In this document: one piece after another, positions 35,479 to 39,139 of the stretch | How positions within the stretch are numbered: position 1 is the first letter of the stretch | Layout: every line of letters begins with the position of its first letter | Origin: Paenibacillus taiwanensis DSM 18679 | Lineage (GTDB): Bacteria; Bacillota; Bacilli; Paenibacillales; Paenibacillaceae | Assembly (NCBI RefSeq): GCF_000425125.1 | Contig: NZ_KE384307.1 | Coordinates: forward strand, 796,966-860,965 | DNA length: 64,000 nt | Reading direction: 5' to 3' | The notes under the pieces: generated by a model | The model's input: only the letters and a program-made list of their open reading frames with translations | Told to the model about the DNA's origin: nothing | The model's database searches: none | Position numbers and translations under genes: made by a program

Positions 35479-36396
35479 TTATTGATGACCCTCTGCAATC
35501 GCTTTGTAAGCGGCTAAATCGGTGTATACTTCTACTTTCAGCGGGTTCCGTTTATGTTTCGTAATTTTGTAAATGTGGTAAACAAAAACGGCAATGTTAG
35601 CGATCAGGGAGATCGAGCTTACGACCCATAGAGCCGTTTCACTGTGCGAAGATTGCACGGCGAACATCGAATCTCCGACAAACATAGGGAACGACATCGT
35701 AAACATCATCCAAATGGCCAACGTATGCGCCCGATGCTGTAACCACGCACCTTTTTTCATAAAGAAAGCAGGAATCGTACAGGAAATTAGCAAGGCAGCA
35801 CCTGCATAGAAGGAGTGGTCCGACACACAGTTATACACATAGGCAAAGTTCCACAAATCATACGCAATAATCCAGAACCAGAGTTGATCAGGCCACAGCA
35901 TATCTTTATGTTTGTCTTTACTAATCACAATGCCCATCCAGCCCGAGATCGTAATGATATTCAAAATCCCTGCAATACCATTCATAATGTTCCAAGGACC
36001 GCCAATCATCATAACACCATCGATCATGCCGTTTAAGCCCGATACTTGGAAGTCACGAATGACAGCTTCCATAATGTTGATCGCCAGAATAACAGGCGGG
36101 AACATTAACAAGTATTTATTGTCGCTCCAGCCTTTTACATAACGAAGTGCCATAAAGCCAAGACATCCCGCTAACGCGGAGTACACTTTCACCCAATGGA
36201 ACCATGTCCCTGTACTGGAACCTTCACCAGCAGTTGTTGGCCAAACAGCGACAGTAAGCACTATTGGCAGGAACAAGAACAAGGTTAAGGCAATCCACTT
36301 GTTTAAGCGAGCTAACTCATTTACAAAAATTAAGCCACCCAACACGACAAGCCACATTAGTGCGGAATACCACGGTATGGATTCAAATAAAAACAT
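35479..36396 (-). CDS. Multi-pass membrane protein, DUF5692-like (paralogue of 3873-4706)
   Basis: A 305-residue integral membrane protein with about nine spans. It shares WFHWVKVYS and NIMEAVIRDF with WFRWAKILS and NIMEATIKDF of the gene at 3873-4706, and a similar WNFAYVY/WNFMYTTW segment. The function is unknown for both. GGGGAGGG precedes ATG 36396. It is convergent with the ATPase gene and has no evident partner. Confidence 0.75.
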   Translation of the reverse strand: MFLFESIPWYSALMWLVVLGGLIFVNELARLNKWIALTLFLFLPIVLTVAVWPTTAGEGSSTGTWFHWVKVYSALAGCLGFMALRYVKGWSDNKYLLMFPPVILAINIMEAVIRDFQVSGLNGMIDGVMMIGGPWNIMNGIAGILNIITISGWMGIVISKDKHKDMLWPDQLWFWIIAYDLWNFAYVYNCVSDHSFYAGAALLISCTIPAFFMKKGAWLQHRAHTLAIWMMFTMSFPMFVGDSMFAVQSSHSETALWVVSSISLIANIAVFVYHIYKITKHKRNPLKVEVYTDLAAYKAIAEGHQ

Positions 36397-36780
36397 ATGT
36401 AACCCTCCCCTAGAATGTTAGTATGTATCGTTCTATACCTTGAATATATACAAGCGTTTTAGTTGCGGCAAATCCGGAATGAGCTTGATACATCAACGTT
36501 TTAAGAGATTTATTTGAAGATTGGTTTACACTGTTGTTTGTGTTCTGATCAGAAGGAGACAGCTTAGGGCACGAGGCATTTGTTAAACATTATTGACGTT
36601 ATCGATAACCTAGTGTCTGAAGTAAGCTGCTGCAGCTAGTGAGCGTATGACCTGCGGAGAAACGAAGGCGGAAATAGTGTAAACTTAACTTGAAAGTAAA
36701 AAAAGATGCAATATAGGTGGGTAACCTTGCTATAAAGCGCATTTTGCATCATTTATGTTGTTTAATTTGTCATTAAAATT
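36397..36780. other. Gene-free stretch
   Basis: No gene is seen. An inverted repeat, GATGCAA (36705-36711) and TTGCATC (36744-36750), is followed on the leftward strand by a run of seven T. It could act as a second terminator behind the FAD oxidoreductase operon. Confidence 0.45.
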
Positions 36781-36835: not shown

Positions 36836-38095
36836 TTAGAAAAAACGATTAACGAGATATTTTGCGTAGATGATACAATTTTCTAGTGTAGGAAAATTCA
36901 TAATTTCCCCTGCAAAGTATATATGCTGCTTGCCTTGCAACTGATCCAGTTGATCATAAAAGCCTGCACGTAAAGCGGCTGAATCGACATGTGGAAAATG
37001 CTCCCATTGTTTGATCATATAGAGGCGTATTTGAGTTCCGCCTAGCTTGCGCAGTTCTTCCTCAACGGTTTCACGCATTTGCTGATCGGTCATTTCTTCA
37101 TTTTCCATCACATATACCGTAATGAGATCCGTATTTTCTTCATCTGTCCAGCGGTAGTACCAAGCCATCATATGCCCTTTGCGATCAGACGACATATTGT
37201 CTGGTATATAACCAGATAGCTCTGGAATGCCCTCAACTCTATAGGCATATACGCGAAAGCGTTCATATGTAACCTTCTCCATCAGCTGCTGCTCTGCGGG
37301 CGACAAAGACAGCAAATGACGAGCATGATACAAAGATGAGGTATAAATAACGTGATCAAAGTAAAACGTTCCTTGATTCGTGTCCACGCGAACCCGTCCA
37401 TCAGAGCCTAATTCCATGTACTGTACCGAACAGGTGAGACGCAAGTCGTCAATTCGGTCTGCCATTCGTTTAATGAGTGCATTTGCACCTTGCGGCCATG
37501 TGATCATATGTGTAATTTCAATAAACGATAATAAATTTTCAAAGCTTAAAAATTTGAGCACATAAGCAGCAGGCACTTCATCAACGCTGCCAAAACCAAA
37601 TGTACTAAAGTAGTGCATATAAACTTGTTGTATGACAGTCAGATCGTGTGCTGCACACCAGTCAGCAAACGGCTGGCATAATTCCTCTGGCAGCCGCAGA
37701 AACCCAGGCTCTTTTAAGCATTCGTATTGACGAAGCACATCTGGCAGCCGCTTGAATTGTTCTGTAAAAGCTTCGATTTGGTGCAACGGAATTTGTGACG
37801 TTTTACAGCCATGCTGGTTAAAAAAGCCTCGTTCCAACAGCGGCCCTTTGTCGGTCAGTCCATACTCCGCCATCAGCTCTTGGGTATGTTTGTAAGAAGG
37901 TAGGCCGATAAGTGTTCCCATTTCATATGTTTTTGATTTATACTCAATAGAGTGACATTTACCGCCTACACGATCTTCTTGTTCTAAGATGGTTATACGG
38001 GCATAGCCTTTTTTGGCTAATTCATGGGCAATAGTCATACCAGATATGCCTGCTCCGATAATTGCAATTTCTTGGTTGTAGGTTGCACTTGCCAT
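36836..38095 (-). CDS. FAD-dependent amine-oxidase-like oxidoreductase
   Basis: A 419-residue flavoprotein. The N-terminal Rossmann motif is IAIIGAGISGMTIAHELAKK, ending in an acidic residue (TILEQEDRVGGK), with the GG motif typical of the amine oxidase/protoporphyrinogen oxidase superfamily. A second FAD motif closes the protein (HIYFAGEIMNFPTLENC). The middle (about 90-330) is the substrate domain and is not assignable. No signal peptide. AAGGAG precedes ATG 38095, only 6 bp after the upstream transposase-like gene, so they form an operon. The substrate is unknown. Confidence 0.85.
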   Translation of the reverse strand: MASATYNQEIAIIGAGISGMTIAHELAKKGYARITILEQEDRVGGKCHSIEYKSKTYEMGTLIGLPSYKHTQELMAEYGLTDKGPLLERGFFNQHGCKTSQIPLHQIEAFTEQFKRLPDVLRQYECLKEPGFLRLPEELCQPFADWCAAHDLTVIQQVYMHYFSTFGFGSVDEVPAAYVLKFLSFENLLSFIEITHMITWPQGANALIKRMADRIDDLRLTCSVQYMELGSDGRVRVDTNQGTFYFDHVIYTSSLYHARHLLSLSPAEQQLMEKVTYERFRVYAYRVEGIPELSGYIPDNMSSDRKGHMMAWYYRWTDEENTDLITVYVMENEEMTDQQMRETVEEELRKLGGTQIRLYMIKQWEHFPHVDSAALRAGFYDQLDQLQGKQHIYFAGEIMNFPTLENCIIYAKYLVNRFF

Positions 38096-38101
38096 TACTT
38101 G

Positions 38102-39139
38102 TTATCTCCTTGTAAACAGCCATAGAGGAAACAGATCTTGCTGATTGTTATACTCCAGAACTACATCCGATGGTATTTTCCCCTGATTGGGCCCATCTGT
38201 AATCGGTCTGCTGAAGTTGTACTTATTCATATACTCCGCTAACCGCTTCTCCAGTACTTCGAAGGAATCAATTTTATGATCAGTCCACGTATGCGCATAG
38301 AATTCTTGTGTCAGAACGGTCAGAAATTGATCTAATGGCAGGAACACTTCCTTATTGCCAGCTGTTACTGCGATTTGCTGAATGTTATACTTATGGAGTA
38401 GCTCCGTGTACTTATGGGTACCCATCTCCCAGTTCGTTGTAAATTCCAGACTTTTATTCGTCACTAAGTGTTCAATTCTAAAATGAAAGGTTTTGATCAA
38501 CGGAATTACTTTAAATTGCATAAAATCGATAATATGAATGGTGTCCTTACGATTGTACAGCTTGACTAGTGCCAATCGAGAGTAGACATCATAGATCACA
38601 TATTGGTATACTCTTCCTATCTTAGGGAATTCGCCCATGTACGTGATACTTTGAAGACACATATATCCTGGATGTGCATGGGATGATTGTGTCATCTTAA
38701 AGTCCAATGTCTGCGGCTTATACTGACGACGCTTAGGAGCTGATGCTCCCTTACTTCGTTTTTTTTGTCTAACTTCTTCGGCATAAGCTTCTCGATCTTT
38801 CCTCTTGCTTAACCTGTTGCGTCGCAGCACATTGTATATACCTGATTCTCCAACATTAATTCCCTCATCCTGCAATTCATAACTTATCCGTTTAGGTCCA
38901 TCCTCAGGGAACTTCGCAGCATGCTGCAAAATACGCTTCTCCGTACGCTTATCCACCTGATTGGGCATAATCGGGCTTCGCCTTGTCTTCTCAACAAGTC
39001 CCTCCATCCCGTGAGCTTTATAAGCGTTATACCATTGATAATAAATGGTGCGGGAAATACCAAACTCCTTACAGGTTTTGGCTACGTTTTTATTTGTAAT
39101 GCCGTGCATAATAATTTGATATTTGTGCTTTTCATTCAT
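38102..39139 (-). CDS. IS481/DDE transposase-like protein with all three catalytic acids substituted
   Basis: A 345-residue intact frame. Residues 10-110 hold two helix-turn-helix segments as in IS481-type transposases; 145-285 form an RNase-H-like integrase core. Compared with the usual motifs, VQID is replaced by LQS (S164), TDNGSEF by TNKSLEF (N228), and NGKVER-x-x-RT by a segment with D270 in the glutamate position. All three catalytic acids are therefore changed while the rest of the fold (YDVYSRLAL, TQEFY) is retained. No paired terminal inverted repeats were found. It is the first gene of an operon with the FAD oxidoreductase 6 bp downstream. A domesticated DNA-binding regulator is the favoured reading; a decaying insertion sequence is the alternative. 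Confidence 0.8.
   Translation of the reverse strand: MNEKHKYQIIMHGITNKNVAKTCKEFGISRTIYYQWYNAYKAHGMEGLVEKTRRSPIMPNQVDKRTEKRILQHAAKFPEDGPKRISYELQDEGINVGESGIYNVLRRNRLSKRKDREAYAEEVRQKKRSKGASAPKRRQYKPQTLDFKMTQSSHAHPGYMCLQSITYMGEFPKIGRVYQYVIYDVYSRLALVKLYNRKDTIHIIDFMQFKVIPLIKTFHFRIEHLVTNKSLEFTTNWEMGTHKYTELLHKYNIQQIAVTAGNKEVFLPLDQFLTVLTQEFYAHTWTDHKIDSFEVLEKRLAEYMNKYNFSRPITDGPNQGKIPSDVVLEYNNQQDLFPLWLFTRR

Follow-up and report, generated by a model that had tools for sequence, protein, structure and literature searches.

The question raised by this locus is what a transposase-like gene without a catalytic triad is doing in a fixed position beside a fatty acid isomerase homologue. Our analyses of the window, by which we mean the whole 64-kb stretch of DNA, support the view that a domesticated IS481 (ISSod13-like) transposase now serves a locus of unsaturated fatty acid isomerase/reductase genes as its own dedicated transcription factor, a reading to which we assign a probability of about 0.8. 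The gene and the parts of its product are as follows.

38102 to 39139, minus strand: gene for a catalytically dead IS481-type transposase of 345 aa, its frame running from an ATG at 39139 to a stop at 38102
Residues ~3-48 and ~64-107 of the 345-aa protein: two N-terminal helix-turn-helix (HTH) units
Residues ~158-290 of the same protein: RNase H-like domain, in which S164/N228/D270 replace D/D/E

A preliminary description of the gene had placed S164, N228 and D270 at the DDE positions of an open frame. A joint alignment of the dead family with live IS481/IS3-type transposases of the same bacterial family, 22 of which aligned cleanly, demonstrates that these residue numbers are exact, residues 164, 228 and 270 falling in the D, D and E columns, which are intact in 22/22 live transposases and in 0/31 dead-family members; the frame likewise contains zero internal stops and zero frameshifts. 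The further claim that all three catalytic acids had been replaced stands, with a reservation at the third position. Across the 31 homologues, column 164 holds S, R, T, A, G or K and is acidic in none, and column 228 holds N, K, E, H, C, A or I, with D in none and E in 4/31. Column 270, on the other hand, is variable (Q, H, D, E, N or S) and sometimes acidic, and D270 is itself acidic, so the consistent loss is limited to the first two triad sites; judged from the alignment, D270 is a conservative change in the window copy and the position is uninformative across the dead family.

The protein scored 153 bits against the NCBIfam IS481 profile (below the cut-off of 224), and in Pfam only its HTH domains lay above cut-off, with rve below its own. 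A structure model from 34 sequences (pLDDT 82, pTM 0.58), which replaced an earlier, poor AlphaFold model from 14 close sequences (pLDDT 65), combines an RNase H-like fold with a helical, DNA-binding-like region at the N-terminus. Its best structural matches are the IstA transposase and retroviral integrases; a PDB sequence search with the dead-family profile gave no convincing match. None of the marks of an active IS481 element (D/D/E triad, flanking terminal inverted repeats (TIRs), presence in multiple copies or in mobile records) was found for the window gene, and the criterion of fold and descent was met (HTH and RNase H-like fold, profile similarity, ISSod13-like grouping). The protein is therefore an IS481 member by descent and fold that fails every test of an active element made here.

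The operon partners of this gene, like the newly identified paired sites considered below, go beyond the preliminary description. In the window the module continues with the following features.

36836 to 38095, minus strand: gene for an FAD-dependent homologue of the P. acnes polyunsaturated fatty acid isomerase (PAI; PDB 2b9w), 419 aa
36781 to 36809, minus strand: intrinsic terminator-like hairpin and T-run just 3' of the isomerase gene, CCTGAGTC TTTATT GGACTCGGG TTTTTT, read from the sequence
35479 to 36396, minus strand: gene for a DUF5692 membrane protein, the third of the module, 305 aa (PF18948, 482 bits)

The isomerase homologue begins 6 bp past the end of the transposase-like gene and matches P. 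acnes PAI over its full length (E 2.2e-68, residues 6-419), with PAI Arg88, a residue that matters in the P. acnes enzyme, aligned to Arg89. On this alignment the partner is a full-length PAI homologue, and isomerase activity on linoleate is inferred only. Because a terminator-like hairpin follows the isomerase gene, DUF5692 is probably on its own transcript in the window. In every locus with enough sequence, an isomerase homologue lies directly 3' of the transposase-like gene, at a junction that is a 6-bp gap or an overlap, and the surrounding genes differ. The linkage also appears in the distribution of the two genes, as close homologues of the isomerase and of the transposase-like gene occur in the same six of 398 phylum genomes. 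In the Paenibacillus loci DUF5692 comes next, and in most Clostridia the genes after the pair encode HypB, then an Fe-S/flavin protein of 900 aa, with DUF5692 and/or HypA as well. In domain make-up and neighbours this 900-aa protein matches IsrA, the putative isoprene reductase, homologues of which have been reported near HypA (0.73), HypB (0.56) and DUF5692 (0.40) (PMC10134865). The gene set fits an inferred pathway in which a polyunsaturated fatty acid is isomerized to a conjugated diene and then reduced; the IsrA half of the module is absent in Paenibacillus.

Several loci depart from this layout. At L046 (G180) the isomerase homologue survives intact and so does the site pair, whereas both other genes, the transposase-like one and DUF5692, are broken; this is a module in decay, and the mixture of broken and intact genes indicates that module partners can be lost separately. 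A second, highly divergent pair of dead transposase and FAD enzyme is found at L163 6837-9035, L194 8676-10879 and L198 5619-7817 (~28% identity for the transposase and ~25% for the FAD enzyme), divergently oriented to an IsrA-HypA-DUF5692 operon. DUF5692 genes also occur outside the module and without a transposase-like gene (L165-L167); they are 38% and 76% identical to module members, and the L165 and L166 proteins are longer (394-417 aa).

Between Paenibacillus and Clostridia members of the dead family, identity is 56% in the HTH region (3-110) and 34% in the RNase H region (158-290), whereas in live relatives the order is reversed (HTH 35%, RNase H 48%). This reversal may be read as a sign of retained DNA binding and provides independent support for it, although binding itself was not measured. 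The DNA that would be bound came from alignment of the isomerase-DUF5692 intergenic regions of 20 Paenibacillus loci, which contain two inverted copies of a 22-bp site with the consensus gTGTAAACctAACTtGAAAGtA. The resulting features in the window are listed below.

36677 to 36698, plus strand: left operator-like site GTGTAAACTTAACTTGAAAGTA, 33.1 bits in the leave-out scan, best of the 64-kb window
36510 to 36531, minus strand: right operator-like site GTGTAAACCAATCTTCAAATAA, 21.6 bits in the leave-out scan, second best of the window
36443 to 36472, minus strand: sigma-A promoter candidate for DUF5692, read from alignments as TTTGCC - 18 bp - TATATT and located downstream of the right site

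The inverted pair of ~22-bp sites (TGTAAACnnAACTTGAAAGTA) thus lies upstream of a sigma-A-like promoter, that of DUF5692 in the window and that of HypB-IsrA in Clostridia. With the window, its sibling and L044 excluded from training of the leave-out PWM, the third-best score in the window was 8.4 bits and the highest across 60 shuffled windows 19.2 bits, and exact matches to the core consensus in the whole genome were limited to the left site. The PWM was trained on Paenibacillus loci only, with no Clostridia included; even so, in 15/15 clostridial loci its best match lay where expected, in the intergenic gap that precedes HypB-IsrA, with an inverted partner 80-82 bp away in most. The second site is weak in L044 (13.7 bits), and L094, L097 and L102 have no scored partner. 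In Fusibacter the sites stand at the HypB-IsrA promoter, ~5 kb from the transposase-isomerase pair, which shows that it is the regulated promoter they go with, rather than the isomerase 3' end. The pair is absent from five IsrA operons (L192, L193, L195-L197) and from four DUF5692 loci (L165-L168) that lack the transposase-like gene, one of these four having a single weak match (10.8 bits) ~3 kb away. The loci with divergent dead homologues (L163, L194 and L198) have weaker site pairs, 81-84 bp apart. Together, these scans show that, at the level of sequence, site presence tracks the transposase-like gene.

Among the alternatives to a regulator, the one that survives best is that the protein was domesticated for a structural or accessory role, such as an isomerase scaffold or a nucleoid protein, and that the inverted sites are bound by another regulator. 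The tight coupling to the isomerase gene would suit a complex with the enzyme equally well as a regulator, and there are no binding data to separate the two. We nevertheless consider this unlikely, at odds of roughly one in eight, because the HTH domains are the most conserved part of the protein, because the sites follow the gene, and because no other recurrent DNA-binding gene was found in the module neighbourhoods, although an unlinked regulator could still bind the sites in place of the protein.

The position of the sites bears on a second alternative, in which they are the termini of a transposon with the module as its cargo, mobilized in trans by a live relative. This would account for the patchy distribution of the module and its varied genomic contexts, and the sites start with TGT, as do IS481 ends. 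The geometry contradicts it: the sites lie inside the module, in the gap between isomerase and DUF5692 or HypB, with their tips facing each other and not at the borders; in ordinary loci the region 5' of the transposase-like gene yielded no sites; and the full-length TIR of live relatives differs. We regard it as very improbable. With regard to the origin of the sites, they start with TGTAAA and the live transposon ends of the group with TGTA, and a clear sequence identity with the TIRs of live relatives (TGTAnnAGTTCAGACTTGATCTGACAGTTA) was sought and rejected, the only common elements being TGTA at the start and, offset by 3 bp, an ACTTGA core. The resemblance is too limited to show that the sites descend from transposon ends, and these two elements are no more than suggestive of kinship.

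The promoter region provides the evidence on a third alternative. The promoter is conserved in position in the 20 Paenibacillus loci and reads TTGACA-N17/18-TATACT in most Clostridia. Between the right site and the -35 box, many Paenibacillus and Clostridia loci carry a dyad, AACGTTGAnnnTCAACGTT. In several Clostridia a T-run comes after this dyad and abuts TTGACA; the dyad could be a terminator or the site of a second regulator. The same dyad, coming after the right site in many loci, is what favours the idea of an RNA leader or riboswitch, and not a DNA operator, in the conserved intergenic block. This idea has just as little to recommend it as the transposon reading, since an Rfam search gave no credible match and the candidate promoter is downstream of both paired sites, whose spacing varies from 81 to 224 bp across loci, so that the sites need not be transcribed at all. 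Helical phasing of this spacing was not significant (Rayleigh p 0.07-0.6).

It remains to be asked whether the gene is being kept or is merely on its way out. It is present in one copy in its own genome, and the dead family has one copy per genome except for one tandem duplication. The duplication, in L039 (G178), is 8.6 kb long and spans the whole three-gene module, and its copies look identical. The gene was found in 17/295 genomes of the bacterial family, with a few copies broken or frame-shifted. A wider scan with one genome per species recovered Paenibacillus and Gorillibacterium homologues at 52-95% identity and Clostridia-type homologues (Alkaliphilus, Clostridium, Anaeromonas, Fusibacter) at 34-46%. 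Searches of 72,556 plasmid records and 50,697 phage records recovered no close relative of the protein; there were no matches at >=60% identity and the best matches, at ~28-29% identity over 94-98%, were IS481 family transposases. The dN/dS of the gene is 0.05-0.12 (NG86, 12 species pairs), similar to that of the partner isomerase-homologue gene (0.03-0.14), and purifying selection acts on it. Between the window and its sibling species L079, dS is 0.27 for the transposase-like gene and 0.85 and 0.73 for the partner genes, and in other species pairs it is similar across all three module genes; recombination or synonymous constraint is a possible cause of the low value. The preliminary description had proposed selection for DNA binding without transposition, to be supported by purifying selection and a fixed non-catalytic triad. 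Both hold, the triad being non-catalytic in all ~30 homologues from two classes of Bacillota, and the conservation reversal and the gene-tracking sites speak for the same proposal. The pattern that would have refuted it, the same triad in many copies with flanking inverted repeats, was not seen: TIRs flanking the gene were again looked for and not found, and the inverted pair that does exist is downstream, between the next two genes. That the gene is an immobile, decaying or recently inactivated IS relic retained by chance beside cargo genes, as its still recognizable IS481 origin and the broken copies in G180 might suggest, is contradicted by this dN/dS and by its intact, consistently dead-triad, single-copy and TIR-less state in ~30 species of two classes, and is the least probable of the explanations considered.

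In the tree, the dead members, including the divergent type from three further genomes, form one group (96/92) next to live ISSod13-like transposases that are common on plasmids. The three nearest live relatives have one copy each in draft genomes, where copy number is uninformative, and the mobility of the live group was therefore judged from plasmid records. The tree is compatible with a single domestication event; later horizontal transfer of the module is a likely inference from its patchy distribution and changing neighbours. As an exapted transposase is recognized by lost catalysis, purifying selection and a fixed genomic association, all of which apply, domestication of the gene is close to certain.

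The role as a transcription factor is well supported but inferred, in the absence of binding, expression or phenotype data. Also counted against it are the limited likeness of the sites to live TIRs, their variable spacing without significant helical phasing, the weak or missing second sites at some loci, the possibility of an unlinked regulator and the separate loss of module partners in G180. As to how such a regulator might work, the HTH region would bind the two sites and the RNase H domain would hold two or more subunits together, and we propose that the sites would thereby be paired as a transposase pairs its ends. Binding and pairing are both inferences, and in this scheme the paired sites would form a regulatory DNA loop without any cutting, the pairing would control the promoter downstream, and a transposition synapse would have been reused as a regulatory complex. 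Given that the sites lie upstream of the -35 box, activation and looping repression are both compatible with them, and the sign of regulation can only be inferred, as can its signal, which might be a fatty acid. The complete proposal, that a bacterial DDE transposase was exapted once, long ago, and pairs end-like sites into a loop regulating fatty acid isomerization/biohydrogenation genes, we hold with only slightly better than even confidence. If the regulator reading is correct, it names a regulator and an operator for little-studied genes (PUFA isomerase, IsrA-type reductase and DUF5692) whose presumed substrates are unsaturated lipids or hydrocarbons, and it warns that a host regulator can stand behind the annotation 'IS481 family transposase' or 'integrase'.

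Eukaryotes offer well-documented cases of transcription factors derived from transposases. By analogy, the mode of life of the window family appears nearest to that of exapted transposon proteins such as TldR, RAYT and FHY3/FAR1. With its closest relatives, the ISSod13-like subgroup of IS481, it has in common the HTH region and RNase H fold, full-length similarity (28-29% over 94-98%), the pattern PGYL..Q....G...G.GK.Y and a neighbouring place in the tree, but it has lost the triad, is single copy, TIR-less and fixed in an operon, and has an HTH region more conserved than its catalytic domain. On the side of the partner genes, the window isomerase homologue matches P. acnes PAI (PDB 2b9w; PMC2885616) over its full length, and the neighbourhood of the Acetobacterium putative isoprene reductase operon (PMC10134865) is matched by the clostridial IsrA-type, HypA, HypB and DUF5692 genes, although a transposase-derived regulator is described in neither. 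A non-exhaustive literature search found no DDE transposase acting as a bacterial operon regulator, and no papers on the dead-transposase family or on DUF5692 function beyond PMC10134865. TnpA-REP/RAYT (PMC8266576) is also a domesticated bacterial transposase, but of another nuclease type, tied to REP repeats and without a dead DDE enzyme in an operon, and FHY3/FAR1 of plants (PMC13306707) are DNA transposases turned transcription factors, but eukaryotic and derived from Mutator-like elements. The clear bacterial case found is TldR, a group of nuclease-dead, TnpB-derived, RNA-guided transcription factors regulating flagellin expression (PMC13418256), which resemble the window family as bacterial/phage transposon-derived proteins that lost catalysis and are now regulators. 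TldR, however, is RNA-guided and comes from the accessory nuclease TnpB, whereas the ancestor of the window family is the DDE transposase itself and end-like DNA sites are its apparent targets. The candidate operators make direct testing possible and, if the reading holds, an operon regulator derived from a DDE transposase and fixed in two classes would represent a second, independent route from transposon protein to bacterial transcription factor.
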